A stretch of 21,530 nt of DNA, from positions 1-21,530 of the IMG/VR virus record IMGVR_UViG_3300025674_007832, one strand, 5' to 3'. Source of the DNA: a virus. Position numbers and translations under genes: made by a program. Each line of letters opens with the position of its first letter. The first letter of the stretch is position 1. This document shows, piece by piece, positions 3,189-21,481 of this stretch. The notes beneath the pieces are model-generated. The model was not told the origin of the DNA. It ran no database searches and saw only the letters and a program-made list of their open reading frames with translations.

Positions 3189-3238
3189 TTTATTTTCCTA
3201 TGATACTATAATATTATTTATAATGATAGGAAAATAAA
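3189..3238 (-). promoter_or_regulatory. late promoter inside a hairpin that sequesters the endonuclease start
   Basis: A perfect 13-bp inverted repeat (3189-3201 with 3226-3238) surrounds a 24-base loop. On the minus strand the second arm contains AGGA seven bases before the ATG at 3188, so a read-through transcript from the upstream petF unit would hide the ribosome site. The loop carries the late element TATAAATA (3222-3215). A transcript started there (about 3210) lacks the first arm and would leave the site free. T4 I-TevI is controlled in this way. The arrangement is seen directly; the control is inferred. Confidence 0.8.
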
Positions 3239-4072: not shown

Positions 4073-4867
4073 TCACTGACTTTGCTGCTGAGAGGGGTGG
4101 GTTATACGCCCCAAGAATGGATCATAATTCATAAGGTCATCAATCTTCATCTCATACCCCTGATGTTCCCAGAAGCGTAGAAGACCATCATGACTTGCTC
4201 TATGGAAGTGATCAATGTGCTCAGGATGAATAGAAGACCCTAACTCAATTCTGTAAAGAAACAAGGGAATAGAAAAAGTATTCCCAGAATTATAAATCAA
4301 GTCATCTGCAACTGCTCTGGGTTTGACACCTTGATCAAGTTTATACTTATCACCTCTCGTGTGAAACTTGAGAAGTTTTTCTGCATGATGACGAGTAATC
4401 ATATAAGCAGCAGTAGAAAAATCATTCACAAATCTCTTATGCAACTTAACATGCAAATCTCCAGTGCAAATAATTGCTAGTTGTATAACATCCCAATCGT
4501 ATGGGACTTTTGATAGAAAATCTGCCCAAGTAAAGTCCCAAAATCTAACTGTTTGAATATCTACATCATCCTCCATAATAACTGCATAAGGACTATCGGA
4601 TGTTTCAATCCAATGTTTGATTGCCTTTAGATGAGAAGTTGTGCAACCAATCTCCCCTGTAGTCATATTATCTGGATATTTCCCCTTAATAATTTCACTT
4701 AAGTCATCTTCCCGCCCATCATAAGCAGAAATGCGAGTATAGTTATCAATTTCCCAATACTTAAACTGTTCTTCCATATACTCTTTTCTTTCTGGTTGCC
4801 CATCAAGATTCAGATAATATATTGGTCCTATGTTTTTAAGTTTATATGCTGATTTGTTCTTATCCAT
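4073..4867 (-). CDS. glycosyltransferase family 25-like protein
   Basis: A 264-aa protein with the GT25 (LPS/collagen-type galactosyltransferase) layout. It starts the fold with IYYLNLDGQPERKEYMEEQF, has the conserved GEIGCTTSHLKAIKHW segment (about 71-86) and the metal/nucleotide site VIMEDDVDI with EDD at 99-101. Further on, FSTAAYMITRHHAEKLL and RAVADDLIY match the family's acceptor-side region. Enzymes of this family add galactose or glucose to lipooligosaccharide. It is the last gene of the glycan island and overlaps the UDP-galactopyranose mutase gene by eight bases, so the two may act on the same sugar. A second, shorter GT25-like gene lies at 8231-8875. Confidence 0.88.
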   Translation of the reverse strand: MDKNKSAYKLKNIGPIYYLNLDGQPERKEYMEEQFKYWEIDNYTRISAYDGREDDLSEIIKGKYPDNMTTGEIGCTTSHLKAIKHWIETSDSPYAVIMEDDVDIQTVRFWDFTWADFLSKVPYDWDVIQLAIICTGDLHVKLHKRFVNDFSTAAYMITRHHAEKLLKFHTRGDKYKLDQGVKPRAVADDLIYNSGNTFSIPLFLYRIELGSSIHPEHIDHFHRASHDGLLRFWEHQGYEMKIDDLMNYDPFLGRITHPSQQQSQ

Positions 4868-5945
4868 TTTTGAATTTATTCATTGTAGACTCAATGACAA
4901 CGTGCATGTCCATATACTTATATTCAGACAGTCTACCTCCAAAAATAAAATTAGTCAATACAGAAGAATCATTCCGATACTTGGAATAAATTTTTTGATT
5001 GTCATCACTATTAATTGGATAAAAGGGAGTTCTACCTTTTACATATTCTAGAGGATACTCATAAGAAACTACTGTTTTTGGAGAGATTGAGTTTTCAAAA
5101 TGCTTGTGCTCAATGAGTCTTGTCATAGGTTGCTCATTGTCACAGTAATTTATAACAGCATTCCCCTGATGATTTTCAGTATCAAAAACTTTCTCATCAA
5201 ATTTCAAACTCCTATATTCCAATTCACCATACTTATAATCAAAGAATTCATCAATACATCCTGTATAAACAATTTTTGTCGCCAAACCATCAAAGTATTG
5301 TCTATTAGAAAAGTAATCAGTATTGAGTTGAACTTCAATACCATCCAACATTCTTTCAAACATTTGAGTATATCCACCAATTGGAATACCCTGATACCTA
5401 TCATTAAAATAATTATTATTGAATGTAAATCTAAGTGGAAGTCTTTTAATGATAAAGGTTGGAAGTTCTGTTGCCTTTCTTCCCCACTGCTTTTCAGTAT
5501 AATCCTTGATGAGTTTGGTGTAAATATCCCTACCAACAAGTGATAATGCCTGCTCTTCTAAGTTTGTTGGCGTTCCTTTAAATCTTTGATCTTCTATAAT
5601 CTGCTTTGCTTTTTGTGGGCAAGTAACACCCCAAAGTTCATAAAAAGTATTCATATTGAAAGGCAGTGAATACATCTTACCTTGATGTATTGCCTTAGGT
5701 GAATTGATATAATTATTGAACTCCGCAAAACGATTTACAAAATCCCAAACAAATTTATTACTAGTATGGAAAATATGTGCTCCATACTTATGGACATTAA
5801 TATTCTCTACCTTTTCAGTATAGCAATTTCCAGCAATATGATCTCTTTTATCAATAATAAGACAAGACTTGCCAGCATCTGTAGCAAGTCTTGCAAAAGT
5901 GGTTCCAAACAAACCACAACCAACAATCAAATAATCATACAACAT
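4860..5945 (-). CDS. glf: UDP-galactopyranose mutase
   Basis: A 361-aa flavoenzyme that converts UDP-galactopyranose to UDP-galactofuranose. It begins with the FAD-binding motif YLIVGCGLFGTTFARLA, then IDKRDHIAGNCYTE, and HKYGAHIFHTSNKFVWDFV, all diagnostic of Glf. YTEKQWGRKATELP and RLPLRFTFNNNYFNDRYQG carry the substrate-site residues, and FGGRLSEYKYMDMH near the end is the conserved C-terminal FAD/substrate segment. Length is normal for the family. It overlaps the upstream 466-aa gene by 11 bases. Its presence implies that the glycan built by this island contains galactofuranose. Confidence 0.95.
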   Translation of the reverse strand: MLYDYLIVGCGLFGTTFARLATDAGKSCLIIDKRDHIAGNCYTEKVENINVHKYGAHIFHTSNKFVWDFVNRFAEFNNYINSPKAIHQGKMYSLPFNMNTFYELWGVTCPQKAKQIIEDQRFKGTPTNLEEQALSLVGRDIYTKLIKDYTEKQWGRKATELPTFIIKRLPLRFTFNNNYFNDRYQGIPIGGYTQMFERMLDGIEVQLNTDYFSNRQYFDGLATKIVYTGCIDEFFDYKYGELEYRSLKFDEKVFDTENHQGNAVINYCDNEQPMTRLIEHKHFENSISPKTVVSYEYPLEYVKGRTPFYPINSDDNQKIYSKYRNDSSVLTNFIFGGRLSEYKYMDMHVVIESTMNKFKNG

Positions 5946-7335
5946 TAAACACTAGACCCCAAAATCTTTCCATATGAAGACCAAATTCTGGATTGCGAGG
6001 CAAAAACTCTTCATCAATTCCAGGATTACCAAGAAGTTTGATTGACAATTCATCCAACTCTTCTCCAGGATCATGCTCAAAAATATCTAAAATATTCTTA
6101 TAGAACTCAACTGGTCTCTCTCTAATTTTATCACGTGAGGCACAAAATTGTGCTCCAGCACCAAAAATAAAAGTTTCCATTTCTGGTTGCTTACCAAATA
6201 CTTTTTCGTAAGCATACTTGATGTTTGGAAAAATTGAATGGTAATCTTCTCTTTTATATTCAAAATCGCCTTCAACAATTCTTTCTGAGAACCAGAAGAA
6301 CTCTGGAATAATTTCATTAGCATACAAAAGATAATTTAAGTATCCATGAAGTTTTGGACTATGTGGATAAACAGGATCTCCTTGCAAGAACACAGTGTAT
6401 TCTGAGAGATTATCATAGTTATTGACTATATGATGTAGATAAGTATGTCCCTCTCTACCAATGTTTTCCAATTTGATAGAATTCTCAATTTCATCATCAC
6501 CTTTATTATATACGGTAACAAAATCTTTGTACCTGTTGGTCCATCTCAGATCTTCATTATATCTAGAAACAACTATTTCAAGGTATGACTTATCCTTATC
6601 ATCAATCAGATCTGAAAGCATCTGAAAGAGAACATCAGTTTTCTTATCTTTACTAGGTTGAAAATTATTATGCCAGGCACAGGCATTCCTAAAATGAAGG
6701 AACTTTCCGTTTGCATGGAGTTCAAATCCATATCCACCTGTCACCTCAGGGTCTTGCAGATCTATGCCTTTATAATCTTCTGGATACTCAACTCCCGTAT
6801 TTTCATACTTTAGACCAGCACGAAGTAACTTATAAGTTCCTCCGCCAGTGTCAAGCATTTGACCATCTACTGTTTGTGGAAAGAAATCAAATTCAATATT
6901 TTCTGTTGCAGATTTTTTGCAAAAGAAAAGACCTGGCCAAATGTACTTAACATCTTCTCTAGATTGGAGACATCCCATTACATCATTGACTGACATCTCA
7001 TTAGTAACGTCATAATCATCAATCAGGAACATATCATGATCCAAGAAGAGAGCGATACAATCTTCCTCCTCTGTTAGTATAAGATTATCATACGCCCATT
7101 TTGCAGTTTGAGCATGATAAAAACTTGGGGATCCTCCCGGTTCAGATTTATGGCGATGCAGTTCTACATCATGATCCTTACAGATCTTTTCAAAATCTTC
7201 GTAGTGCTGGTCATCTCTGGTATCATAAACAACACTTATAACTTTTTCACCAAATATAAATTTTTTTAATGACTTAATTTGATAGTCAAGTAAATCTGGA
7301 CGATTAAAAACGCAGCAAATAATTTTCGTTTTCAT
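5935..7335 (-). CDS. two-domain protein: GT-A-like N-terminus plus DUF3431-like C-terminus
   Basis: A 466-aa protein that reads as two joined domains. Residues 1 to about 245 start like a glycosyltransferase (IICCVFNRPDLLDYQIKSLKKF), with a DHD metal-site-like motif at 99-101 (IALFLDHDMFL) and HFRNACAWHNN near 214-224. Residues about 252-460 begin LEIVVSRYNEDLRW and contain NIGREGHTYLHHIV and VFLQGDPVYPHSP, the pattern I associate with DUF3431, a family of unknown function also found in fungi. The ATG overlaps the upstream epimerase stop (ATGA). A glycan-modifying role is inferred from the N-terminus and neighbours; the domain names come from memory of the motifs. Confidence 0.7.
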   Translation of the reverse strand: MKTKIICCVFNRPDLLDYQIKSLKKFIFGEKVISVVYDTRDDQHYEDFEKICKDHDVELHRHKSEPGGSPSFYHAQTAKWAYDNLILTEEEDCIALFLDHDMFLIDDYDVTNEMSVNDVMGCLQSREDVKYIWPGLFFCKKSATENIEFDFFPQTVDGQMLDTGGGTYKLLRAGLKYENTGVEYPEDYKGIDLQDPEVTGGYGFELHANGKFLHFRNACAWHNNFQPSKDKKTDVLFQMLSDLIDDKDKSYLEIVVSRYNEDLRWTNRYKDFVTVYNKGDDEIENSIKLENIGREGHTYLHHIVNNYDNLSEYTVFLQGDPVYPHSPKLHGYLNYLLYANEIIPEFFWFSERIVEGDFEYKREDYHSIFPNIKYAYEKVFGKQPEMETFIFGAGAQFCASRDKIRERPVEFYKNILDIFEHDPGEELDELSIKLLGNPGIDEEFLPRNPEFGLHMERFWGLVFNVV

Positions 7336-8234
7336 ACATTCTCCTTAATATAATCTTTGAGATCTACCTTTGATTCCCAACCATAAACTTGTTTTATTTT
7401 AGAAACATTAGCGATGCTTTTTCTTGCCTCTGCCAGTCTAGGAGGAATATGAACAATATTGTCAGAGATCAATGCTGCAATATTTTTGATTGATATTTCT
7501 CTTCCAGTTCCTACATTATACACTTGACCATAATCATTCACATCCTTTTCAGCAACTGTAAGATTTGCTGAAGCGATGTCAGATACATGAACAAAGTCTC
7601 TTGTTTGCCTGCCGTCCCCAACTACAGTAAGAGGTACTCCATCTTTCTTCTGATCAAAGAAAACTCCCATAACAGGAGCATATTGCCCACTCTTTGGTTG
7701 ACGAGGACCATAAACATTAAAATACCTAAGAACAACTGTTTGAACATTATAAAGATCATAGTACATCTTCATCAAATTCTCACAAGCCAATTTAGAAACT
7801 GAATATGGATTGAGAGGATCTGTAGGATTTGTTTCTACACACATCTTATTCGTCAATCCATAAATTGCTGCTGTAGAAGAAAAGACAACTCTTCTTACTT
7901 TTAATTTTCTAGCAACCTCTAGTACGTTACAAAGACTTGAGACATTATTGAGATAGGATTCAACTGGATTCTCAATACAATATGGTATAGAGACATCAGA
8001 CGCGAGATGAAAGATGTAATCACATCCGTTGGATATCTTTGTTAGAATTTCATTGTTTTCTGGAGAACTCAGATCAAACTGATAATTTTCAGCATCAGAA
8101 TTCCAGTAATATTCATCGTGACTATTAGCACATTCATTATCAACTACGACAACTTCGTAATTGTTTTTCAATAAAAGATCTACCAAATTAGAACCGATAA
8201 ATCCAGCACCACCAGTAACTAGTGATTTAGTCAT
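7332..8234 (-). CDS. NAD-dependent sugar-nucleotide epimerase/dehydratase (extended SDR)
   Basis: A 300-aa extended short-chain dehydrogenase. The NAD-binding motif is VTGGAGFIGSNLVD (residues 6-19), an Asp ends the second strand (VDN), and the catalytic set is S120/T121 in FSSTAAIYG with Y144 and K148 in PYSVSK. RYFNVYGPRQ and GDGRQTRDFVHVSD are the substrate-side motifs of UDP-sugar 4-epimerases and related enzymes. It may make UDP-galactose (or a GalNAc/uronate equivalent) for the UDP-galactopyranose mutase and GT25/GT6 enzymes; exact substrate cannot be told. At 300 residues it is slightly short. It is linked by four-base ATGA overlaps to genes on both sides. Confidence 0.9.
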   Translation of the reverse strand: MTKSLVTGGAGFIGSNLVDLLLKNNYEVVVVDNECANSHDEYYWNSDAENYQFDLSSPENNEILTKISNGCDYIFHLASDVSIPYCIENPVESYLNNVSSLCNVLEVARKLKVRRVVFSSTAAIYGLTNKMCVETNPTDPLNPYSVSKLACENLMKMYYDLYNVQTVVLRYFNVYGPRQPKSGQYAPVMGVFFDQKKDGVPLTVVGDGRQTRDFVHVSDIASANLTVAEKDVNDYGQVYNVGTGREISIKNIAALISDNIVHIPPRLAEARKSIANVSKIKQVYGWESKVDLKDYIKENV

Positions 8235-8875
8235 ACAACTCTCTCAGGTAGAAAATAATTTTTATTATAATTAAAGCATTCCTCAGTCGGATAACTTGTC
8301 AATGGATTCACAGTTCCGTGATATCCACTTGTTTGATAGAAGAATGGATCATCAAATGTATAAACATTAAACCAACGCTGAATCTCAGCAAATCCAATGT
8401 CTTGATAATCTTCAATTATGTATCCAGCGTGATATGTTATCCTTTGGCACATTCTAACATACTCATCAGTTAGATACAAGACTGAATGTCCCCCAAGCAT
8501 ATTATAAGTTCGATACAGATCATCCTTTATATGCTCATATTGAACATATGGTCCAGAATGACCATTCATTCTCCCCCAAGATGAAATACCAAGATAAACA
8601 GCATCAGCATCATCAGGAACTTCAATCTCTGGACGGAAGTTCTTGATCATACAATCATCTTCAAAAAGAATGAATGGTGGATCAATCTCAGATAATCCCT
8701 TATGGTGAGCAGCAGAGCATCCAGCAACAGGACGATCGGGGCGAGGAACACCCTCTACACGAATAATAGTCTTGAACCCACACTCTTTAAGAATATTTTG
8801 CATATTCTCATTTTTTTCAGTGTGCTGTTCAAGATTCATATAAACAGCAGGAATTTCTCTAAGATCTAAGTTCAT
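8231..8875 (-). CDS. short GT25-like glycosyltransferase
   Basis: A 214-aa protein resembling a compact GT25 enzyme: AVYMNLEQHTEKNENMQNIL at the start (compare IYYLNL...R in the other copy), GCSAAHHKGLSEI (about 52-64) and FILFEDDCMI with the metal-binding EDD at 72-74. TYNMLGGHSVLYLTDEYV and IIEDYQDIGFAEIQRWF fill the acceptor half. It is about 50 residues shorter than the 264-aa GT25-like protein and much diverged from it, so the two probably use different acceptors rather than being recent duplicates. Four-base overlap with the downstream epimerase gene. Confidence 0.75.
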   Translation of the reverse strand: MNLDLREIPAVYMNLEQHTEKNENMQNILKECGFKTIIRVEGVPRPDRPVAGCSAAHHKGLSEIDPPFILFEDDCMIKNFRPEIEVPDDADAVYLGISSWGRMNGHSGPYVQYEHIKDDLYRTYNMLGGHSVLYLTDEYVRMCQRITYHAGYIIEDYQDIGFAEIQRWFNVYTFDDPFFYQTSGYHGTVNPLTSYPTEECFNYNKNYFLPERVV

Positions 8876-8916
8876 TGTGATTTTTAGCGATAATCTTAAT
8901 ATATTTTAATATTTTA

Positions 8917-9576
8917 TTACTTATCATACACAAATACAGTATTCCATTGATTTTTAGAAATCTCAATATACCCCTGATTATTAATATACTTCCTAAGTTT
9001 AATCATCTCATTAACATATTCTGGATAATTTTGAAATGAAGGATGCTCATCTTCTAGTTCCACAATTACTATTTTTGGATTCCATTCTCTCAAATCAAAC
9101 GTTTGAAAAACTTCAGACTCCTTACCTTCAACATCAACAACCAAAACATCAAAATTTTTAGGAACTTCAAGTTTATTCATTAAGGTATCCAATCTCATTT
9201 GATCACAAACATCTTCAACAAATTGATAATTTTTAGACCAATCTATTTCTTTATATCTTGATAACTGCTCTTTATCGAGTGTAGTAAGTAATCCAGCCCT
9301 ATAAATTGTCATCTCACCCTCTTCTAAACCTATAGAAACATTAGCAACTGTTACATCATTATTTCTATGTCTTTTAAGACATTTTTCATAATGTTCATAA
9401 ATTGGTTCAATATATAATCCACCCCATCCCATATCAGCTAAACAAGATGTATTTGAAAAAGATTCTCCATCATAAGCACCAACTTCTACAAAATATCCTT
9501 TTGATGGATATCCAAAATATTGTTGATAAATCTCGCTTAAATTATCAACTTGGCAATTTGAAGGTAATTTGTACAT
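8917..9576 (-). CDS. FkbM-family methyltransferase
   Basis: A 219-aa SAM-dependent methyltransferase of the FkbM type. The SAM site is GYFVEVGAYDGESFSNT (about 27-43), followed by WGGLYIEPI with the acidic residue that binds the ribose. DTLMNKLEVPKNFDVLVVDVEGKESEVFQTF is the family's hallmark middle segment and KIVIVELEDEH follows. FkbM enzymes O-methylate sugars in polysaccharides and natural products. Here it probably caps or modifies the glycan made by the neighbouring transferases. AGGA lies about nine bases before the ATG at 9576, and the upstream GT6 gene ends four bases away. Confidence 0.9.
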   Translation of the reverse strand: MYKLPSNCQVDNLSEIYQQYFGYPSKGYFVEVGAYDGESFSNTSCLADMGWGGLYIEPIYEHYEKCLKRHRNNDVTVANVSIGLEEGEMTIYRAGLLTTLDKEQLSRYKEIDWSKNYQFVEDVCDQMRLDTLMNKLEVPKNFDVLVVDVEGKESEVFQTFDLREWNPKIVIVELEDEHPSFQNYPEYVNEMIKLRKYINNQGYIEISKNQWNTVFVYDK

Positions 9577-9580
9577 TTTA

Positions 9581-10291
9581 TTAATTCCTATATTCAGAAT
9601 GATTTTTATCTAAGGCTAAAATTTTTGGATTATAATATTTGCTAACAATCCATCCTTCGGGATTTTTTAATGCTGGTTCTGGATAACAGTATGAAGGATC
9701 TAAACTTAAGGTTGGTGGATTATCAATAAGATAACAATTTAAATGCGACTCATCATGCCATAAAGCAATCACCCCATTTTCAAGATCTTTGGTTACACGG
9801 TAGGAAAGAACCTCAGACATTTCAAGAAATCTCTTTGTTGACCCACCATTAAATCCACCAGCATAATAATGTTCACCTTCCTCACCGACAGGAACATAAG
9901 CTAATGATTTTGGATTTCTATCATAAGATCTTTGATCTTTTGGATAGAAAGATTGGCATGGATGCATTGTTGCAACAAGGTCACCAAAGACCTCTTCACC
10001 AACCTTATCTACTAAACCCATGTCCACATCAAAGTAGTAGCAATAATCAAACTGAGAAATAAACTCCTTCTCCTTCATAAAGTAATTATACCTTTTCAGA
10101 GTAGGCATTGGCCAAGGTTCGTGCTCAATCTGACAAACTCTCACATTATCAGATGCTTCTACTTCGTGGTCTGTAAAAAGAAGACATTCAATTTCGTGCC
10201 CATTAAGAAAGTTTTCTTCGATATTATCAAGAAGTCTTTCAACAAACTGAATGTACTTGTTTGTAGCAATAGTTAGGATGCAAATTTTCAT
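9581..10291 (-). CDS. family 6 glycosyltransferase (ABO/alpha-1,3-Gal type)
   Basis: A 236-aa enzyme with clear GT6 motifs: MKICILTIATNKYIQFVERL at the start, EPWPMPTLKRYNYF (58-71), YCYYFDVDMGL with a DVD metal site at 88-90, VATMHPCQSFYPK, then YYAGGFNGGSTKRFLEM (143-158), and ALWHDESHLNCYL (176-188). GT6 includes the human ABO transferases and the alpha-1,3-galactosyltransferase; the proteins retain configuration and move Gal or GalNAc from UDP. The compact length without a membrane anchor matches bacterial and phage members. As I recall, bacterial members often have NXN in place of DXD, whereas this one keeps DXD. The Gal donor fits the neighbouring epimerase. Confidence 0.92.
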   Translation of the reverse strand: MKICILTIATNKYIQFVERLLDNIEENFLNGHEIECLLFTDHEVEASDNVRVCQIEHEPWPMPTLKRYNYFMKEKEFISQFDYCYYFDVDMGLVDKVGEEVFGDLVATMHPCQSFYPKDQRSYDRNPKSLAYVPVGEEGEHYYAGGFNGGSTKRFLEMSEVLSYRVTKDLENGVIALWHDESHLNCYLIDNPPTLSLDPSYCYPEPALKNPEGWIVSKYYNPKILALDKNHSEYRN

Positions 10292-10306
10292 ATCAATTTA
10301 CTGTAA

Positions 10307-11092
10307 TTATTTTTTAGCAACTATGATTATATTTTTAGTATTTCCACATTCTGAATAATTATTATAAAAAGTAAATCCATCATCCTTTAATTTTGAAACT
10401 ATACAATTATAATTATCATAAACATTATCAACCATTAAATTATATGTAATGTAGACTATCTTACTATTTTTGATTACTTTATCATAATAATTTAATTGAG
10501 ATTGAATGTCAAGTTCTGAAAGAGAATAATTACTAATTAGAAGATCTATATCGTAAATACTATCTAATCGCTCACATGAAATAAATTTAATTTTTGAGTA
10601 TATCTTTGAAAAGTTTTTTAAATATTTTTCTTGAACTTTTAGTCCTTCAGAAAGATCGACATTTATATATTCATCAAAATCACATAAAACACTTAAGGTT
10701 TTACATAAACCACCATATCCACCACCAATTTCAACTACTTTAGAAATCTCTCCATTTTCACAGATTGAACTCAAGTCTAAACAATTTTTAATATATCTGA
10801 GAGTAGTTGGTGAAATTTTACCATCACCATAAACAAATTGTTTAGGATTTCCAATCAAATCATTTTCTAAAAATTGATCTAGATTTTCATCATAAATTTC
10901 TTTACCAACCTCTTGAATATAGTCAAAATATTTTTGCCCCAACTCAAAATCAACATGCTCAAGAATAACATTATATTCTGGCAATACTTTAAAATTAGAA
11001 AAGACTTCATCATCTTCTAAAATTTTATTACAAATATTAATATATTCTTTTGCATCATTTGGGTTAATGTCCCAACCATTAAGATTTTCCAT
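10307..11092 (-). CDS. putative sugar O-methyltransferase (NanM-like)
   Basis: A 261-aa class I methyltransferase. The N-terminal half is helical with GNPKQFVYGDGKISPTTLRYIKNC (read as two halves, about 81-104), and the SAM site is KVVEIGGGYGGLCKTL (118-133) followed by INVDLSEGLKVQEKYL. LLISNYSLSELDIQSQLNYYDKVI is the usual post-SAM strand region. The combination matches the putative sugar O-methyltransferase family that I know as NanM-like, found in surface-glycan clusters. Very AT-rich, with many Asn, Lys and Ile codons, unlike the genes at 4-8 kb. Confidence 0.8.
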   Translation of the reverse strand: MENLNGWDINPNDAKEYINICNKILEDDEVFSNFKVLPEYNVILEHVDFELGQKYFDYIQEVGKEIYDENLDQFLENDLIGNPKQFVYGDGKISPTTLRYIKNCLDLSSICENGEISKVVEIGGGYGGLCKTLSVLCDFDEYINVDLSEGLKVQEKYLKNFSKIYSKIKFISCERLDSIYDIDLLISNYSLSELDIQSQLNYYDKVIKNSKIVYITYNLMVDNVYDNYNCIVSKLKDDGFTFYNNYSECGNTKNIIIVAKK

Positions 11093-11109
11093 AAAAATAA
11101 TTTACAAAT

Positions 11110-11835
11110 TTACTTTAACAACTTTTTAGATAATTCTTCGATTGTACTATGATCAGCAATATTATATATTGGATCTTTGTACTTTAATAATTTTACTTTG
11201 GAATACTTATTCATTTTAAATTCATAATTCTCTCTAACTGCAATAGACCATATAACATCTTCACCTTCTCCCCAAACTAATTCATCATTCAAAGGAAACT
11301 CTATCATAACATTTTTTTTAGAAATCCAATAGGCCCCAGAAAAATACATGTATTTTGTGAATCTTTCTTCATCATAAGGAAGAAGACACTTCATTCCAGG
11401 TTCAACAATTCTACTAATTAATTCATTCCTCTCACCATAAGTACTCACATTCCTAGGATCGTTCCACATACAAAGACACCAATCACGATATCTTGTTTCA
11501 TCCGGATTTACAATTTTAGTCATACATAAATCAAAATTATTACCAAACTTCAAAAATCCAGTATACCAAGCATTATCAAATTTAATGTAATCGTGCAGAT
11601 ATACTATGTTTTCAAAACTAGCACAATTAGTAACAATATTTTTTTTCTTAGTAATCCAAGATTTTTTTATAGTTTCGTCAAAATTTATTACTTCAGTTTT
11701 ATTTCTGATAACCTTAGAATTTCCAACGACTATAATTTCATAATTTGGAATATTTTGAACTTCAATGCTATCGATAATTTCATTAATTTTGTCATCTTCC
11801 GTTCCATTAGTAATAATACCAAAGGTAAAATCCAT
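11110..11835 (-). CDS. GT2-like glycosyltransferase
   Basis: A 241-aa protein with the start of a family 2-type GT-A fold: FTFGIITNGTEDDKINEIID, then QNIPNYEIIVVGNS (27-40), and IVYLHDYIKFDNAWYTGF in the place where DXD-containing enzymes have LHDDI; here the second Asp is Tyr (HDY, 81-83). GEGEDVIWSIAVRENYEFKMN is the typical ED-containing acceptor region. The altered DXD could mean changed metal binding or a weak enzyme. AT-rich. The donor and acceptor cannot be told. Confidence 0.75.
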   Translation of the reverse strand: MDFTFGIITNGTEDDKINEIIDSIEVQNIPNYEIIVVGNSKVIRNKTEVINFDETIKKSWITKKKNIVTNCASFENIVYLHDYIKFDNAWYTGFLKFGNNFDLCMTKIVNPDETRYRDWCLCMWNDPRNVSTYGERNELISRIVEPGMKCLLPYDEERFTKYMYFSGAYWISKKNVMIEFPLNDELVWGEGEDVIWSIAVRENYEFKMNKYSKVKLLKYKDPIYNIADHSTIEELSKKLLK

Positions 11836-11848
11836 AATTTAAATATTC

Positions 11849-12313
11849 CTACAATAATCGTTTGACATAATCACTACAAATTCCATGACAATTAAATGCT
11901 TTTAGATCAGTGAATACATCTACTGACGTATTCCATTCTGGCATAACAATTACTGATTTTGGAGTATAAGTTTTACCAGGATAAGTCCAAATATAATTTT
12001 TACTCGTCAAAGTAAAATCATCTTTTTGGTGCCAAAAATAATTGAAACCTTCGGTTCCATAAGAAAACTCATAGAGTGATTCAATATTTTTACAATGAAT
12101 CCATAAAAAATCTTTGTACTTAGATAACCAAAACCAATCTACGTGATATTGTGGTTCATCGTGACCAAGATAAAATTTTCTATCATAAGTATCATATCTA
12201 ATATCAATTTCAACGTGGAATCCTTGTATTAGTGCTTTTTCCAGATATTCTGGGTTATTCTCTTCCAAAGGATTTGATCCATCAATATTACCTCGATGTG
12301 CTATAAGTTTCAT
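11849..12313 (-). CDS. short glycerophosphodiesterase-like (GDPD) protein
   Basis: A 154-aa protein of the PLC-like/GDPD TIM-barrel superfamily. LIAHRGNIDGSNPLEENNPE carries the catalytic His-Arg (H6, R7), HVEIDIRYD the metal ligands E35 and D37, and YLGHDEPQY the second catalytic His (H51). It is much shorter than standard GDPD enzymes (about 240 aa) and looks like the compact version seen in capsule and LPS loci. It may hydrolyse or transfer a glycerophosphate-type group on the glycan. Its ATG overlaps the stop of the HAD-nucleotidyltransferase gene (ATGA), so the two are probably functionally linked. Confidence 0.8.
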   Translation of the reverse strand: MKLIAHRGNIDGSNPLEENNPEYLEKALIQGFHVEIDIRYDTYDRKFYLGHDEPQYHVDWFWLSKYKDFLWIHCKNIESLYEFSYGTEGFNYFWHQKDDFTLTSKNYIWTYPGKTYTPKSVIVMPEWNTSVDVFTDLKAFNCHGICSDYVKRLL

Positions 12314-13680
12314 TGCTTATAATGCTCCAAGAAATAATTAAGATCTTCAGGAGTTCCAATTCCCCACATCTTTTCAATATCTTTGATTCGAATTTTTTTT
12401 CCATCTTGAATTGCTTCATTGAAGACTGGACAGACATAGAACTCATTATTAGTTCTGATATTTTTCTCAATCATTTGTTCGGCATATTTCACATAGTCAG
12501 AACCTTTCTTCCAAAAATAGATACCAACCGTTGCATTATCACTGATTGGTTTTTTCTCAGCAACTTCAGATACAAAACCATCCTCACCAACCTTGGCATA
12601 GGACCACTTAGGATGAGTTGCCTTGAAACTAACAATACCACCATCAATACCATCGGCATTAAATGCATAGAGACATTCATTACTGTTCCACTCCACAAAC
12701 TGGTCAGAGTTTGCCATTACAAGTGGAGAATCATTATTAATGAACTCTTTGGCAAGTAGAGTAGTGCAAGCAGCACCTTCAGTAACACCATCCACCTGAA
12801 CAATATTGCAGTTAGGAGCAATCAAGTTTAGGAGATATTGAAGACTATACTTCTCATAATGTTCCTTCTGAACAATAAAAGTATAATTTGCTTCAATATT
12901 AAGATTCTCAACTACCACTTGAATCATTGGTTTACCATTCACTTCAATCAGTGGTTTGGGAAAGGTATATCCAGCATTCGCAAAGCGACTACCGGCACCT
13001 GCCATAGGAATAATAACATTCATTTTATCAGACTTCCAAGGAATATGGTTTACATTGATTTTAGAGAGAGTTTTAATTGCCTCATCAATTTTTTGTTGAT
13101 TCATACTACTCCTATTCTCAATAGGAATTAAATGTGCTTTACTGTCCAATGCACCCTGTCTTCCAATATGACTGTCTTCAAAAATTACAGTATCTTTGGG
13201 AAGTGCATTACAAACAATCATACACTTCCAATACATTTCTGGAAATGGTTTATTGCGAACAACATCTTCATTACTCACATAATAATCAACAAACTCTAAT
13301 ACTCCCAATTTAAGTAAAACCAATTTAACAGTATTCCGAATACTATTGCTTGCAACAGAAATTTGATAACCTTTGGTTTTCAATTGTTGAAAATAATACA
13401 TCAATTCATGATCATGTTCCAATCTTGAAAAAATATCAAAAGTTGCTTTTTGCTTATCTTCCCAAATCTGACAATGCATATCTACAGGAAGACCCTTATT
13501 CTCAGTCAACATTGTAAGTTTTCTAGAAGTAGGAAGACCATCATAAAGACTCAGATGCTCGTCTTTGTTTATAATATATTTTTTATCTACATTTTTTAAA
13601 GCACAATTTAATGCTTCATAATGCATATCTCGACTATCAATTAGAACACCATCAAGATCAAAAATTACTAACTTGTTCAT
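12310..13680 (-). CDS. HAD phosphatase / sugar-phosphate nucleotidyltransferase fusion
   Basis: A 456-aa bifunctional protein. Residues 1 to about 215 form a HAD phosphatase: KLVIFDLDGVLIDS (D8, D10), the Ser motif SVASNS (108-113), Lys in VVRNKPFPEMY (144), and FEDS (167-170). Residues about 220-456 form a nucleotidyltransferase: MNVIIPMAGAGSRFANAGY with the GAGSR loop, FPKPLIEVNGKPMIQ with the donor Lys near 242, VMANSDQFVEW and GIYFWKKGSDYV. Such a pair could dephosphorylate a sugar phosphate and load a sugar on a nucleotide. Substrate is unknown. The start is ATG 13680 because GGAG lies seven bases upstream; a TTG 12 bases earlier would include the ribosome site in the coding region. Confidence 0.9.
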   Translation of the reverse strand: MNKLVIFDLDGVLIDSRDMHYEALNCALKNVDKKYIINKDEHLSLYDGLPTSRKLTMLTENKGLPVDMHCQIWEDKQKATFDIFSRLEHDHELMYYFQQLKTKGYQISVASNSIRNTVKLVLLKLGVLEFVDYYVSNEDVVRNKPFPEMYWKCMIVCNALPKDTVIFEDSHIGRQGALDSKAHLIPIENRSSMNQQKIDEAIKTLSKINVNHIPWKSDKMNVIIPMAGAGSRFANAGYTFPKPLIEVNGKPMIQVVVENLNIEANYTFIVQKEHYEKYSLQYLLNLIAPNCNIVQVDGVTEGAACTTLLAKEFINNDSPLVMANSDQFVEWNSNECLYAFNADGIDGGIVSFKATHPKWSYAKVGEDGFVSEVAEKKPISDNATVGIYFWKKGSDYVKYAEQMIEKNIRTNNEFYVCPVFNEAIQDGKKIRIKDIEKMWGIGTPEDLNYFLEHYKQ

Positions 13681-13702
13681 ATAAATCTCCAATCATTAGT
13701 GA

Positions 13703-14578
13703 TTATAAGTATACAGCACGTCCATCATTTCTGTGATATGTCATAATTATACCATCTTTTTTTATTTTATGTTTATTCTGATGATATACATCATGTATCA
13801 ACCATAATGGTTTATATGACAGTTTTTCATTTATTTGAAAATAAGTTTCAATAGGCATAGATTCCATACTCCAATTTCTAGTAACACCATAGGTTTTTAA
13901 ATTAATTAAATCATAACCTTTATAGAGAACACAATAATAAATGTACGATATGTAATCAAATACCCACCAAGATAACTTATTTACAAATGTCTCATAATTT
14001 TCAAAATTTATAAATTCAAGAAATTCAGAAGCAATTTTAGTATCATAAATTGGGATGTCGGAAAACCAAAAATAATGAGTCAAACCATAAGTTTTGTTTT
14101 CCAATTCTTGAATATCTTGTTTAAAAAAGATTGAAGAACAATCTATTATGCTTTTTGCTATTTCTAGCCTTTTTTCATTTAAAGATGCTCCAAAAATTTT
14201 TTTTCTATCACAATATTGTTTAAATTTTTCATACACATTATCTACCGATACAAATTCAATTTCAGAGTCAACTGCTGCAATATATTCATATCTATTCTTC
14301 AACATGTTTATAGCATAATATTTTTTAAACGTAATTATTGTTCTAGAATTGATAACATTAGAGATAAAATCACGATTAAATTTTTCTTCTAATAATATAA
14401 AATTATATATTTGGTTGAAATTATATGAATTTAAAATATCCAGATCTTCTCTATAAGACAAAACAAAATAGATGTCAAAATCCAAATCATTTGGGAGACT
14501 ATTAAGAAAATTTAAATATTCATAATGAGGAGGATGAACCGGAATGACGAAAGCAACTTTATTTGATTTATGTTTCAT
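13703..14578 (-). CDS. divergent GT-A-like protein of the glycan island
   Basis: A 291-aa protein from the ATG at 14578 (a TTG nine bases earlier would overlap the upstream gene). It begins VAFVIPVHPPHYEYLNFLNSL and has a possible metal site, YEYIAAVDSEIEF (98-109) with DSE in the DXD place. FGASLNEKRLEIAKSI, HYFWFSDIPIYD and WWVFDYISYIYY follow. The layout (nucleotide-binding-like start, central DXD-like motif, aromatic acceptor half) suggests a glycosyltransferase, but I recognise no family. It is very AT-rich, like its next two upstream neighbours. Confidence 0.6.
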   Translation of the reverse strand: MKHKSNKVAFVIPVHPPHYEYLNFLNSLPNDLDFDIYFVLSYREDLDILNSYNFNQIYNFILLEEKFNRDFISNVINSRTIITFKKYYAINMLKNRYEYIAAVDSEIEFVSVDNVYEKFKQYCDRKKIFGASLNEKRLEIAKSIIDCSSIFFKQDIQELENKTYGLTHYFWFSDIPIYDTKIASEFLEFINFENYETFVNKLSWWVFDYISYIYYCVLYKGYDLINLKTYGVTRNWSMESMPIETYFQINEKLSYKPLWLIHDVYHQNKHKIKKDGIIMTYHRNDGRAVYL

Positions 14579-14583
14579 TGTTC

Positions 14584-15540
14584 TCAATAACTTAATTTAT
14601 CATGAATTTTTTTAATTAAATCAATTTCATAATCAAGACCATTCACCATACCAATACCCCAAACATTGTGGTTAGAATTATGAATAGTGTTATAAGTTAA
14701 ATGAATTGAAAATCCATTTTCAATATAAAAAGTTTTTTTGTTAAATGCATTTTTAAAGTTGTTAAAAGAAACTTCATCAAATGCATCATATCTTGGTATT
14801 GAAAGAAGTTTATGCCAATCTTCAGTCTTAATCAGAAAAACACTATTAGTATAATATGGACAGAAAAATTCTTTGATTGAATAATCTTGATTATCTGTTA
14901 TTTTATGAAAATTATTTAAAATATAATCATTTAAAATAATTTGAGATTCTGCACAAATACGGATAGGATGAATTCCCTTATAATAATGATTTATATTATT
15001 AACACCCTCATAAAAAGCAGAAGGATTCCAAGTTTTTGCCTGAAGTGTATATACATTTAGAGAAGAATAATCAACACCCCAAAGTCCATTTGGCATATCT
15101 CTTTTTAAAAAATTTGAATGAATTTTACTTTTAACAGATTCGTCAGTAATAAAAGATTCTATGAATCGATCTACCAAAGGAATATTATTTGAAAGTAATG
15201 GTGCTAGGATAAAGTTATCATCAGATTCTAAAATATCAACATTTTCAATCATATAATCCCACACATGATTACCGATAAAACAATCTTCATCTAATTTTAC
15301 AGAATATTTTGTATCTTGAGATACGGCATACTCAATTTTGGACATATAATTATATCCCAAATTAAATACGATTACATTAGTTTCTATACCATCAAGTTTT
15401 TGAAAATTGACATCATGAGTTGCAAGAATATTAACTCTAATTTTTGATTTATTTTTTTCTTTAATCAAATTAAGAAAATGTTTTGTAATGCTCCAAAAAT
15501 TTTCAGATCGATCATGACTAAGATAATTAATAGTTATCAT
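14584..15540 (-). CDS. putative GT-A glycosyltransferase
   Basis: A 318-aa protein with a GT-A-like start (MITINYLSHDRSENFWSITK) and KYSVKLDEDCFIGNHVWDYM carrying DED at 84-86 in the DXD position, preceded by the typical short strand. The second half has NGLWGVDYSSLNVY, AESQIILNDYIL and FHLTYN-like aromatic stretches. These fit a glycosyltransferase, though the family cannot be named. It overlaps the upstream methyltransferase gene by 14 bases and ends five bases before the next gene, so it is part of one transcription unit. Confidence 0.65.
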   Translation of the reverse strand: MITINYLSHDRSENFWSITKHFLNLIKEKNKSKIRVNILATHDVNFQKLDGIETNVIVFNLGYNYMSKIEYAVSQDTKYSVKLDEDCFIGNHVWDYMIENVDILESDDNFILAPLLSNNIPLVDRFIESFITDESVKSKIHSNFLKRDMPNGLWGVDYSSLNVYTLQAKTWNPSAFYEGVNNINHYYKGIHPIRICAESQIILNDYILNNFHKITDNQDYSIKEFFCPYYTNSVFLIKTEDWHKLLSIPRYDAFDEVSFNNFKNAFNKKTFYIENGFSIHLTYNTIHNSNHNVWGIGMVNGLDYEIDLIKKIHDKLSY

Positions 15541-16231
15541 TTTTTACTCTTGACAAATTTACAATGTTTAGTGGGATACTATAAAAATTATGTACATAAG
15601 AAACAACATTTTCAAATCCAGAGTATGAAAACATTTGCTCTACCAATTCTACATTAAAAGTATGATGATGTACAACTCTTGTAAGATGATTTATTTCACA
15701 CAATTCATAAAAATTCGGAAGTCCCCCAAAACTCCAATCGTGCAATTGTTTTTGCTCTTGGATATGAGTTGTATCATCCTCTCCCATATTAGATTTATAA
15801 TCTTCAATCAAATGTTCTATAGTAGTTAACGGTCTTATTCTATCAAAACAGAAATCTTTATTGGGTATGATAGATAAAATATATCCATTAGGTTTTAAAA
15901 TATATTTTTTCCACAATTTTAAAGTATTAATAGGATTGGCAAAATGCTCTATAGCATGAGAGGTAACTATAAAATCATACCTTTCTAACAAAGAAAGTTG
16001 CTTTTCATCTGTACAGTCAATATCAAATTGTTTTCCAATTTTTTCAGAGTATATAAAATTTGACCCAATATTAGATTGAAAATGATTATTGTTTAATATA
16101 TTGCCACCATCAAGATTTACATGTGGATATAAGTACATGTTATGTTCTGGGCAATTAAAAATTTCAGTTGGTCCACCGAATTCAATTCCTTGTTTATTTT
16201 TTAAAGTTTCTATAATTAATTCAAATGACAT
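15527..16231 (-). CDS. class I SAM-dependent methyltransferase
   Basis: A 234-aa methyltransferase. The SAM motif is QGIEFGGPTEIF (about 14-25), a variant with Phe-Gly-Gly, and the motif after strand 4 is DFIVTSHAIEHFANPINTLKLWKKYILKPNGYILSII (read in two parts), typical of Methyltransf_11-type enzymes. LTTIEHLIEDYKSNM and HTFNVELVEQMFSYSGF lie in the C-terminal half. It probably methylates a sugar of the island's glycan. Overlaps the downstream gene by 14 bases. AT-rich. Confidence 0.85.
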   Translation of the reverse strand: MSFELIIETLKNKQGIEFGGPTEIFNCPEHNMYLYPHVNLDGGNILNNNHFQSNIGSNFIYSEKIGKQFDIDCTDEKQLSLLERYDFIVTSHAIEHFANPINTLKLWKKYILKPNGYILSIIPNKDFCFDRIRPLTTIEHLIEDYKSNMGEDDTTHIQEQKQLHDWSFGGLPNFYELCEINHLTRVVHHHTFNVELVEQMFSYSGFENVVSYVHNFYSIPLNIVNLSRVKNDNY

Positions 16232-16247
16232 ATTTTGTTTACAGTGT

Positions 16248-17513
16248 TTAACTTTTAATTAAAAATAATAGATCGTCCCATCTCCCCTTTTTATCACGAA
16301 GATCAATGCATTCAATAACATATTCAATTTCGTTATCAATAGATTGGCATACTTTTTCAGATTTATCAATCAACAAATCAAACCATTCAATACTCTGCAC
16401 ATCTTCAATTACAAAAAGTCCATTTTGCTTTAATTTTGGCAAATATAATTCTAAAGATTTTAGTTGACTTTCCAATGTGTGTGGTCCGTCATCAATGATA
16501 ATATCAAATTGTCCAAAGTTTTCAGAAAACTTTTTATCATAAGCATCACCAAAATGCATGGTTACACCAGTAATATCCCTATATTTTTTATCTATTTTTT
16601 CATCAGAAATATCAACACCAACAATAGATTTAGAATTTAAAAAATATTCTTTCCATAATTTTAAAGAACCACCAGTTTCTATTCCAATTTCTAATAAATC
16701 AATTTCCTTTTCTCTATAAGTTTTAAATTCTTTTTCATATACATTTTCAATATAACTATGGCAAGTATTTTTATCAGTTCCTCCTTTATCATAACCTTCA
16801 TTAAAAAAATCAGAATCTAAATTAAATTCTTTCAAAATATCAATCAATTTCATTTTTTTATATTTTAATATTTTATATCTATTTAGATGTCTTTCATATA
16901 CGTTTATATTAGAATTCCAAAGACTTTTCAAATTACCACCACCCATGCCAATCCAAAATTCGCAGTTATGGCGTATAGAAAGTATGGGGGGAGTTTTGGG
17001 AAATTTAATTTCATCAATGGTGGGAAGTTTTTTAATATAAGAAGAATTTGCCCACCAAAAATTTCCAGAATAATGAATAGTAGGTTCATTAACCAAATCA
17101 ACTCCACAAGAATCATATTCTTCCAATGTATCAAAACACTTTTGATATTGATTAACATTAAAATAAGTCATATATTTACGCCAATCATCTATACAAGGAT
17201 TATCTGGGGTTGTTACTCCTTTTGTATGCACATATAAAATTTTACAATTTTCATCTATTGAATCTGAAAATGTTTTAATTAAATTTAAAGTAAAAAATTC
17301 TCCAGTTTCAACATAAAGATGTTTATGAATTTTAATCTTGCTGTGTGGTTGAACGGTCAATTCACCCCCTCCAACCACAGAAAGATTTAACAAATTAACT
17401 TTATCCATCAATCCAGATTGTATTATTTCAGAATAAATTTCATCAAAAATTTCTTGATATTTTCCAATCGTTGCTATGTGAAAATATATTACACTTGGAA
17501 TGACATTTTCCAT
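16248..17513 (-). CDS. glycosyltransferase-like / MycE-like methyltransferase fusion
   Basis: A 421-aa two-domain protein. Residues 1 to about 215 start IPSVIYFHIATIGKYQEIFDEI and contain ILYVHTKGVTTPDNPCIDDW (92-111), then HYSGNFWWANSSYIKKLP (147-164) and CEFWIGMGGG, a pattern found in glycosyltransferase-like proteins of surface-glycan loci and large viruses. Residues about 240-421 form a SAM methyltransferase of the macrolide sugar O-methyltransferase (MycE/CmcI-like) type: YDKGGTDKNTCHSYIENVYE, LLEIGIETGGSLKLW (273-287), VGVDISDEK, and IIIDDGPHTLESQLKSLELY (338-357) with the acidic pair and His. The fusion could add a sugar and methylate it. First of the very AT-rich genes. Confidence 0.83.
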   Translation of the reverse strand: MENVIPSVIYFHIATIGKYQEIFDEIYSEIIQSGLMDKVNLLNLSVVGGGELTVQPHSKIKIHKHLYVETGEFFTLNLIKTFSDSIDENCKILYVHTKGVTTPDNPCIDDWRKYMTYFNVNQYQKCFDTLEEYDSCGVDLVNEPTIHYSGNFWWANSSYIKKLPTIDEIKFPKTPPILSIRHNCEFWIGMGGGNLKSLWNSNINVYERHLNRYKILKYKKMKLIDILKEFNLDSDFFNEGYDKGGTDKNTCHSYIENVYEKEFKTYREKEIDLLEIGIETGGSLKLWKEYFLNSKSIVGVDISDEKIDKKYRDITGVTMHFGDAYDKKFSENFGQFDIIIDDGPHTLESQLKSLELYLPKLKQNGLFVIEDVQSIEWFDLLIDKSEKVCQSIDNEIEYVIECIDLRDKKGRWDDLLFLIKS

Positions 17514-17523
17514 AAGTATTTTT

Positions 17524-18324
17524 TTAAATTATAATCCAATCTGGAAGATAAAGATCGCTAAGATCTTTAGAAGCGTCTGGTCCAGCAAACCAAACACTTG
17601 GAGCAACTGTTTTTTTACTTTTTGCCAACCAAGAACCCCACCAAGAAAATGAAGAATTGGCAATAATATGATATGTGCAAAGAGATTGGAGGCAAAGATC
17701 TACGCCAGTATTATTTCCTTCCGCAAAAATAAAGCGATCACCCTGAAAAATTTTTTGCTCTTTACACCATTCAATTCCATCGGAAAAGACCATGACTGGA
17801 ATATCTTCTGGCATATGAGTCAATCCCTGAGCATAATATTCTAAGATTTGTACTGGATGATGCGGATAATTTAGATAGTCTCCTCTACGCAAATGAACTG
17901 CAACTACCTCAGTATCTCCAAAGTTTGATTTAAATGCTTCCTCTGTTGGTTCACGAATCTCATCAGCAAAAGTAAATGCTAGACGAATATCATCTTCAAT
18001 ATGCTTGAAATACTTTTCCGTCTGAAAATACCCATACAAACTAATATTATTTGGACAACTATTCCAAAGATTTTCATCAAGAGAAAAAGTAGACTCCATC
18101 ACCTTTGGAAAGTTAGTTACATGCTTTGGTGCTTCTGGAATCTTAAAACACTCAAACATTGTAATATCAGAATTTACACAGTTAATATCTCTTGTGGCAA
18201 CAACTGCTCTTGGTGGAAGACAATACTCATAACCGTGCCTCTGAGCAAGACCACGGAGAGCAGTGTATTGAAACATCTGGTTTCCAAGTCTTCCTAGATT
18301 TCCTAAATCATCATTTGCAAGCAT
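17524..18324 (-). CDS. family 11 fucosyltransferase (alpha-1,2-FucT type)
   Basis: A 266-aa GT11 enzyme, the first gene of the glycan island. GRLGNQMFQYTALRGLAQRH at 11-30 is the family start motif, VVAVHLRRGDYLNYP (140-154) is the HxRRGD donor-binding motif shared with alpha-1,2- and alpha-1,6-fucosyltransferases, and YHIIANSSFSWWGSWLA (218-234) is the third conserved block. Enzymes of this family move fucose from GDP-fucose to galactose. There is no GDP-fucose pathway gene in the window, so the donor would come from the host or elsewhere in the phage genome. Base composition is less AT-rich than the next genes. Confidence 0.93.
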   Translation of the reverse strand: MLANDDLGNLGRLGNQMFQYTALRGLAQRHGYEYCLPPRAVVATRDINCVNSDITMFECFKIPEAPKHVTNFPKVMESTFSLDENLWNSCPNNISLYGYFQTEKYFKHIEDDIRLAFTFADEIREPTEEAFKSNFGDTEVVAVHLRRGDYLNYPHHPVQILEYYAQGLTHMPEDIPVMVFSDGIEWCKEQKIFQGDRFIFAEGNNTGVDLCLQSLCTYHIIANSSFSWWGSWLAKSKKTVAPSVWFAGPDASKDLSDLYLPDWIII

Positions 18325-20611: not shown

Positions 20612-20641
20612 AAACTTTGTAATATTTGTAACTTTGTAAAC

Positions 20642-20722
20642 GGAGAATAATAGAATCGAACTATCAGGTGTTACCCTGGCATCGTTTTCAAGACGATTTA
20701 CCGACCATCGGTGCTATTCTCC
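20642..20722 (-). tRNA. tRNA-Ser(UGA)
   Basis: An 81-nt class II tRNA on the minus strand. Acceptor GGAGAAT (20722-20716) pairs with ATTCTCC (20648-20642), the discriminator is G (20641). The anticodon stem ATCGT/ACGAT encloses CTTGAAA, giving anticodon UGA, which reads UCA. A long variable arm follows, then T stem GATAG/CTATT with the canonical loop TTCGATT. CCA is not encoded. Its first nine bases overlap the end of the HNH endonuclease gene. T4-like cyanophages often carry a few tRNAs that suit their AT-rich codons. Confidence 0.93.
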
Positions 20723-21169
20723 ATATTTTGAATAACCTAAATGTTTTGTGTAATGGCAATTAGGACATAATAGTTGTAGATTATTATCATCATTTGTTCC
20801 ACCATTACATCTTTCTATTATGTGATGAATTTGAAGAATACTATAATTTTCATTACCACATTCTTCACAAGTACCACCTCTAATTTTAGAAAGATTTTCT
20901 TTTAAAATTTTTGTTTTATTAGCATTATTCTTTTTATTTAATCCATCATATTTTATTCCATATCTACTTTTATTTGAGCAAGTTCTGGAACAAGTTTTTG
21001 AATTACCAAAAATTATTTTACCACAAATAGGGCAAGATTTTTCATTTTTTCTACTATGTTTTCCAGTACAAGTTGTACTACAAAATACTAAACCATTTTC
21101 TATTTGATTTGGTCTCCTATAAATTTCCTTACCACAATAAGTACAAGAACAATTTGGATTTCTAGGCAT
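20714..21169 (-). CDS. free-standing HNH endonuclease next to tRNA-Ser
   Basis: A 151-aa endonuclease. Two N-terminal zinc-finger-like units are seen: CSCTYCGKEIYRRPNQI...FCSTTC (C9/C12, C30/C34) and CPICGKIIFG...CSRTC. The HNH domain is at the C-terminus: CEECG (101-105), LQIHHIIERCNGGTNDDNN (112-130) and LLCPNCHYTKH (134-143), with H115/H116, N130 and H139, and the four Cys that hold its zinc. The last codons GGA GAA TAG are the first nine bases of tRNA-Ser, so the gene ends in the acceptor stem. It probably acts as a homing endonuclease, perhaps cutting phages that lack the insert. A late promoter within a hairpin precedes it. Confidence 0.9.
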   Translation of the reverse strand: MPRNPNCSCTYCGKEIYRRPNQIENGLVFCSTTCTGKHSRKNEKSCPICGKIIFGNSKTCSRTCSNKSRYGIKYDGLNKKNNANKTKILKENLSKIRGGTCEECGNENYSILQIHHIIERCNGGTNDDNNLQLLCPNCHYTKHLGYSKYGE

Positions 21170-21173
21170 AGTG

Positions 21174-21211
21174 GTTTATCAGTATCTTATGAAATATTTA
21201 TACAGATAAAC
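21174..21211 (-). promoter_or_regulatory. late promoter inside a hairpin upstream of the HNH gene
   Basis: A stem of 7 bp, one mismatch and 4 bp (21174-21185 with 21200-21211) has a 14-base loop. The late element TATAAATA (21202-21195, minus strand) spans the first arm and the loop. The second arm ends five bases before the ATG at 21169. A transcript starting at the late promoter would begin near 21190 and lack the first arm. The same logic is seen at 3189-3238. Confidence 0.65.
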
Positions 21212-21223
21212 ACAAATAAGTCC

Positions 21224-21481
21224 TCAACGGACTTCAAAATCTAATCGTCTTACTTTGCGTTGACGCCTTGCCTCTTGCCAAGCAATATCCTCACTTGTAA
21301 GCACACCAGATTTTGTTTTGTTATGATAAGAGTTTAGCATAACAACTTGCCCTAAGTCAACTGCTGAAATTTTATCAGCACGAATAGTTGCCATATTCGG
21401 GCAACCACAAGTCACTGTTTTATTTTGATGCCCTTCTAATTCCTTATTACAGGAGCGGCATCTTATTCTTATGTTTTCCAT
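21224..21481 (-). CDS. 85-aa zinc-ribbon-like protein
   Basis: An 85-aa protein starting MENIRIRCRSCNKELEGHQN. C8, C11, C25 and C27 (CRSC and TCGCP) form a likely zinc-binding knuckle pair. The second half is basic (WQEARRQRKVRRLDFEVR), which may bind nucleic acid. No specific family recognised. The ATG at 21481 directly follows a hairpin at 21484-21499 and a late-type TATAAATA at 21522-21515. Confidence 0.78.
   Translation of the reverse strand: MENIRIRCRSCNKELEGHQNKTVTCGCPNMATIRADKISAVDLGQVVMLNSYHNKTKSGVLTSEDIAWQEARRQRKVRRLDFEVR

Follow-up and report, generated by a model that had tools for sequence, protein, structure and literature searches.

In phage T4, the homing endonuclease gene I-TevI has a late promoter positioned such that the 5' arm of a hairpin hiding the translation start is absent from late RNA (PMC2988022). 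Similar arrangements have been published for I-TevII, I-TevIII, segB, Aeh1 mobE and ordinary late genes such as e, with hairpin control being implicated for segB (PMC2988022, PMC3014915). The pairing of a late promoter with a hairpin in front of endonuclease genes, to which a sequence-only reading of the DNA analyzed here had drawn attention, is thus not a new design, and the presence of such a T4-type switch in cyanophages is an extension of a known one. Among cyanophages, S-PM2 carries a free-standing homing endonuclease that targets psbA (Zeng et al. 2009), as described in later papers citing that work (PMC10448857, PMC3037559).

The DNA under study (hereafter the window) is a viral stretch of 21,530 nucleotides that can be recognized as a cyanomyovirus fragment from its psbA pieces and T4-type late motifs, and its closest named phage at the DNA level is S-SRM01. 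On its minus strand, positions 20714-21169 encode a 151-residue protein with a cysteine-rich N-terminal part that matches PF01844 (E 1.6e-11) and phrog_1271 (E 2.9e-20) and which, given its matches to PF01844 and HNH PHROGs, is a putative homing-type endonuclease. Its relatives are 70-85% identical to it; none were found in bacterial genomes, and named phages harbor only distant ones (31-33% identity), so that the close relatives are metagenome contigs. The gene had been described as tRNA-linked, and the link takes the form of an overlap, with the stop codon (TAG) lying inside a tRNA-Ser(UGA) gene (20640-20723, minus strand) at tRNA positions 8-10. Upstream, a co-directional gene of phrog_8074 encoding 85 residues (21224-21481, minus strand) is a likely source of read-through RNA, and a phrog_8074 gene likewise lies upstream of an intact tRNA-Ser in S-SRM01. 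The tRNA-Ser carried with the HNH gene is itself unusual, both in the window and in the relatives L005, L007, L012 and L016; in these four relatives, the Rfam family that it matches best is tRNA-Sec, with a score under the cut-off of that family. L005 also presents a wcaG RNA (RF01761), well above cut-off, at positions 5080-5180.

Between the HNH gene and its upstream neighbor, the minus strand from 21211 to 21174 reads GTTTATC T GTAT AAATATTTCATAAG ATAC T GATAAAC, an inverted repeat whose 5' arm (21211-21200) and 3' arm (ATACTGATAAAC, 21185-21174) can pair in read-through RNA through 7 bp, one mismatch and 4 bp around a loop of 14 nt. The stem and coordinates originally reported for this repeat agree with the sequence, as does its position around a T4-type late promoter motif (TATAAATA, 21195-21202, minus strand) and close to the start codon: the 3' arm is followed by CACT and then by the HNH ATG (21169-21167), which lies 4 nt outside the stem and 25 nt from the late motif. 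By analogy with T4, late RNA would start at approximately position 21189, some 6 nt after TATAAATA. The two arms lie on either side of this predicted start, so that the 5' arm would be missing from late RNA. Reading of the 3' arm and the leader reveals no evident Shine-Dalgarno sequence; with the ATG outside the stem, the claim is therefore that the start region is covered, and not that a Shine-Dalgarno sequence is hidden.

This geometry is like that of T4 I-TevI and segB, in which the late motif is located 22-23 nt before the ATG. The likeness to segB extends to a late motif lying in a start-spanning stem (-14.9 kcal/mol, p 0.001) and to a location among tRNA genes. In contrast with the HNH gene of the window, segB is a GIY-YIG gene, free-standing in the T4 tRNA cluster, its coding sequence is separated from the following tRNA by a 5-nt gap instead of overlapping it, and its target is a tRNA intergenic region rather than a D-arm (PMC2988022). 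The I-Tev genes reside inside group I introns, whereas the element studied here has no intron, and their stems hold the Shine-Dalgarno sequence that is not evident in the window stem. On this comparison, we describe the element as apparently working like the I-TevI switch, and not as a strict member of its class. Like the S-PM2 psbA endonuclease, the putative enzyme belongs to a cyanomyovirus, is free-standing and would act near its own place; unlike it, and as far as the citing papers describe the S-PM2 system, there the target is psbA rather than a tRNA gene, with no tRNA replacement (PMC10448857, PMC3037559).

A stem located between co-directional genes and adjoining tRNAs might also serve as a transcription terminator, or as an RNA-processing site, at the boundary that separates the HNH gene from the upstream gene or tRNA cluster. 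We regard this as very improbable, since the start codon lies 0-8 nt after the stem, an unusual place for a terminator, and since no T run follows the 3' arm in the window, nor in the phages S-RIM50 and DSL-LC03, whose related loci are described below; an intrinsic terminator was rejected for lack of such a run. Taken alone, the window stem is only marginally above chance. Folding of the whole leader yields a z of -1.3, with 20 of 200 shuffles folding equally well, and the stem forced across the predicted late start reaches -10.0 kcal/mol (p 0.04-0.06 in three runs), a value comparable to that which this test gives for T4 gene e (p 0.03). The case for a hairpin is carried by the relatives of this locus and by a survey of cyanomyovirus genomes, and not by the window stem alone.

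We compared the locus with those of twelve close relatives (L002-L013) and of L016, which encodes a distant relative of the window HNH protein. On the downstream side, the HNH gene is joined in all of them to a tRNA-Ser(UGA) that overlaps its end. The HNH stop codon is a TAG within tRNA positions 7-10 in the window, L002, L003, L006, L011 and L016; in L005, L007 and L012 the HNH frame continues to a TAA at tRNA position 23. On the upstream side, the late motif in L006-L013 is immediately preceded by the 5' half of a second tRNA-Ser whose sequence breaks off in the D-loop, as illustrated by the L011 junction (GGAAGCGTGGCAGAGTGGTTTATT / CTTATAAATATTTCATAAGATATCAATAAACCACC / GTG, with the tRNA-Ser stump upstream). 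Broken 5' halves of this kind adjoin the cassette in L006, L007-L010, L011, L012-L013 and L016. Intact tRNA-Ser genes corresponding to these stumps occur in named phages: S-SRM01 (GGAAGCGTGGCAGAGTCCGGTTTATTGCGCTTGTCTTGAAAAC...) has flanks that match L007 DNA on both sides, S-SKS1 (GGAGAGGTGGTCGAGTGGTTTATGGCTC...) matches the stump in L012, and the L016 cassette sits in yet another tRNA-Ser allele, which is intact in S-PM2, S-CREM1, S-RIM32 and DSL-LC03. L007 versus S-SRM01, and the L012 stump versus S-SKS1, hence provide filled and empty versions of the same site. The different tRNA-Ser stumps and their intact alleles indicate that the cassette entered several tRNA-Ser alleles, and each insertion then carries a tRNA-Ser(UGA) of its own whose D-arm is different, unlike that of the intact target in both S-SRM01 and S-SKS1. 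Most of the stump is gone in the window, which keeps GTTTATC (also present in L006), and in L003, which keeps almost nothing. By reading, the upstream 5' half is unpaired with the downstream acceptor end, and it is the 5' end of the cassette's own tRNA that pairs with it. A group I intron in a tRNA gene was considered and rejected: the tRNA halves do not pair, and Rfam searches at E<=1 returned no intron in L005, L006, L007, L011, L012 or L016.

Comparison of these junctions reveals where the stem comes from. In L006-L013, the D-loop of the broken tRNA (GTGGTTTATT or CCGGTTTAT) supplies the 5' arm, and the element itself contributes the 3' arm (AATAAACCAC). This origin in a broken tRNA gene is the main peculiarity of the stem, and it had escaped the sequence-only reading. 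In the window, the 3' arm together with CACT is complementary to a 10-nt stretch (AGTGGTTTAT) in the D-arm of an intact tRNA-Ser(UGA), and among 282 control leaders 4 show an equally good match to some tRNA 5' half; for the 3' arm of S-RIM50, complementary over 9 nt, 18 of the 282 controls are as good. Such complementarity lends only modest support. The strongest stems are those of L011 and L012 (-18.5 kcal/mol, p 0.001-0.007), and the stem of L007 is also stronger than that of the window. The L006 stem is poor (p 0.8), and that of L003, where almost no stump is left, is correspondingly weak. Pair counts in the tRNA-Ser family detect no covariation beyond shuffling, and TATAAATA is invariant among its seven aligned leaders. 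Absence of covariation would follow from a constant 3' arm combined with a 5' arm taken from the target, and it leaves the structural case to rest on the sister families. A stronger proposal, that the 5' arm is always a tRNA stump, fails in the family tied to tRNA-Thr (DSL-LC03 included), in most of that tied to tRNA-Gly and in L016. The last of these has a strong hairpin of different sequence (positions 535-579) with no late motif, and this copy is possibly permanently silenced.

The survey sample consisted of eight cyanomyovirus genomes (those of DSL-LC02, S-WAM2 and S-SRM01 being not quite complete), in which endonuclease genes were located by family searches independent of stems and every ORF with NATAAATA 6-60 nt before its start codon was taken as a late-motif gene. 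Folding of each leader was restricted to pairs across the predicted RNA start, and the results were compared with 300 dinucleotide shuffles. As positive controls, T4 I-TevI, segB, gene e and gene 49 scored p 0.007, 0.001, 0.03 and 0.26, respectively; the recovery of I-TevI and segB in this test, in conjunction with the published T4 arrangement, identifies the shared design as the known T4-type switch. With the window excluded, stems at p<=0.02 precede 6 of 21 late-motif endonuclease genes and 4 of 280 other late-motif genes (Fisher 1e-5), and stems at p<=0.05 precede 7 of the 21 and 15 of the 280, which for the other genes is the chance level. Hairpin and promoter are therefore not paired equally often before ordinary late genes, and the suggestion of a convergent or general control of homing endonucleases in this phage holds as far as an enrichment before endonuclease genes goes but not for universality, given that 14 of the 21 surveyed endonuclease genes lack such a stem. 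Two endonuclease VII-like genes were added to the endonuclease list after appearing among the strong stems, and independent family searches later recovered both, plus stemless kin. The late motif precedes 21 of 36 listed endonuclease loci versus 280 other genes among some 2,100 annotated features, a rough comparison because the ORF list does not coincide with the annotation. Without composition correction, raw stem energies fail to distinguish the two groups (window excluded), since GC-rich leaders fold well anyway; unconstrained duplex energies, which ranked GC-rich ordinary leaders high, had been tried as a score and were replaced by the composition-corrected, start-spanning folding. Among the endonuclease genes surveyed, the strongest case comes from S-SRM01 (126172-126582), an endonuclease VII-like gene that is not tRNA-linked and whose start-site stem around CATAAATA is 20 bp long (-24.5 kcal/mol).

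Survey hits also led to two further HNH families that share the layout, tied to tRNA-Gly(UCC) and tRNA-Thr(UGU). In the family of S-RIM50 (phrog_3106), all 14 distinct loci with at least 56% identity are tied to tRNA-Gly(UCC). The S-RIM50 locus reads ...GCGGATGTAGTT / TTATAAATAGAATT ACTACATCC TCAGAAAC ATG...HNH... / GCGGATGTAGTTCAG..., and S-H25, in which the tRNA-Gly(UCC) is intact, provides its empty counterpart. The stem arms of this family change in concert (GGATGTAGT/ACTACATCC, GGTATGATGTAA/TTACATCATACC and others), with 5 of 9 pairs altered on both sides, 17 compensatory cells and 89% of cells paired, versus 23-48% with the arms slid, which constitutes strong compensatory change. In the family of DSL-LC03, 11 of 17 distinct loci with at least 56% identity are tied to tRNA-Thr(UGU), broken tRNA-Thr 5' halves precede the genes of DSL-LC03 and L145 (and a shorter one that of L152), all 11 tested leaders reach p<=0.05, and two stem pairs show compensatory change. 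Both families also include more distant members, whose genes terminate in tRNA-Asn, Asp, Val, Pro, Ser and Leu. In S-WAM2 the end of an HNH gene lies inside a tRNA-Asn, and S-RSM4 has no HNH gene there. In DSL-LC02, an HNH ORF (104441-104881) passes through the 5' half of a tRNA-Ser(UGA), the annotated stop codon (TGA) being the anticodon of this tRNA, and in the leader of this ORF a 10-bp stem surrounds TTATAAAT, lying for the most part before the start region.

These families bear on two other explanations of the stem. The repeat could act at the DNA level, as an inverted copy of a target half-site beside the late promoter through which the HNH protein would bind and repress its own gene. 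I-TevI offers a precedent, as it binds a homing-site-like operator over its late promoter (PMC2988022), and the 3' arms are complementary to the D-arm at which the element breaks tRNA-Ser and, in S-RIM50, to the tRNA-Gly 5' piece. The copy in the window is inverted, however, and only about ten bases long, and the Gly-family stems of L231-L237 stay paired even as the two arms diverge from the tRNA sequence, which favors RNA pairing over a fixed binding site. We thus deem self-repression unlikely as the explanation of the stem, although both mechanisms may operate together. Alternatively, the stem could simply be what remains of a tRNA-gene insertion in an AT-rich region and have no regulatory role, a reading with which the marginal p-value of the window stem, the lack of covariation in the tRNA-Ser family and the weak stems of L003 and L006 agree. 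Nonetheless, stems are enriched before endonuclease genes that were not chosen by stem, they persist with wholly different sequence in L016 and L231-L237, and they show compensatory change in the Gly family; furthermore, a complementary 3' arm would not be created by insertion alone. A functionless by-product appears unlikely, somewhat more so than self-repression.

The element is most likely a free-standing homing cassette that would break a tRNA gene, supply a replacement and be translated only late. The cassette, comprising the HNH gene and its own tRNA-Ser(UGA), would enter the D-arm of a resident phage tRNA-Ser gene, leaving the broken 5' half upstream and providing the replacement tRNA. 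Read-through RNA from the upstream gene would hold both arms and fold, hiding the translation start, while RNA begun at TATAAATA would start inside the loop, without the 5' arm, and be translatable. The HNH enzyme would in this manner be made only late, while genomes replicate and recombine. We accordingly favor, with some confidence, the interpretation of positions 21174-21211 as the 5' control region of an HNH homing cassette with hairpin-gated late expression, built on a tRNA-Ser insertion. More tentatively, and with odds that we would put below even, such cassettes may form a 'home and rescue' class, in which the HNH enzyme breaks the conserved 5' part of a tRNA gene, a tRNA with the same anticodon and an altered D-arm evades the enzyme, a hairpin completed by the stump silences the gene until late, and several HNH families have adopted the scheme with different tRNAs. 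As part of this tentative reading, the tRNAs involved would be Ser, Gly and Thr, and possibly Asn, Asp, Val, Met, Pro and Leu, these last judged from stop-codon overlap alone.

A homing cassette in a phage tRNA gene with a replacement tRNA and a stump-derived hairpin arm was not found in the open-licence papers searched, a scope that does not prove its absence. If correct, these interpretations would carry the best-studied timing switch of homing endonucleases from T4 to cyanophages and would show that the switch can be built from the very gene that the element breaks. They would further provide a counterpart in nature to engineered 'home and rescue' gene drives, whose cargo includes a version of the target gene modified to escape the cutter, and would account for the presence of HNH genes in phage tRNA clusters. 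Both claims can be put to a direct test on the named pairs of filled and empty sites.

The window encodes a second HNH/endonuclease VII-like protein (2655-3188, minus strand; 177 residues; phrog_3322, E 9e-31), for which the same motif-in-hairpin design had been noted. Its companion hairpin is indeed present (3191-3236, minus strand), with 11-bp arms (3236-3226 and 3201-3191) around TATAAATA (3222-3215) and the ATG at 3188, and at -14.1 kcal/mol (p 0.003) it is stronger than the stem of the tRNA-linked gene. The two endonucleases, earlier described as unrelated in domain layout, share no PHROG family, and their stem sequences differ. In L023 (4953-5001) and L024 (1263-1311), whose genes are relatives of this second gene (80-84% identical), a start-site hairpin of 10-13 bp is kept and ACTAAATA replaces TATAAATA; since L016, L023 and L024 keep the stem without the late motif, stem and promoter are not inseparable. 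At positions 407-1613 of the window, psbA is interrupted by an ORF of 233 residues (407-1108, minus strand; phrog_655 homing endonuclease) that has no late motif in front. Its psbA junctions are near-identical to those of the relatives L042-L045, and a similar psbA intron ORF has been reported in S-SRM01 (PMC8557907). Lastly, the minus strand from 4073 to 18324 presents a long run of ORFs whose translations, as read, resemble glycosyltransferases, epimerases and methyltransferases, and which is probably a sugar-modification cluster.
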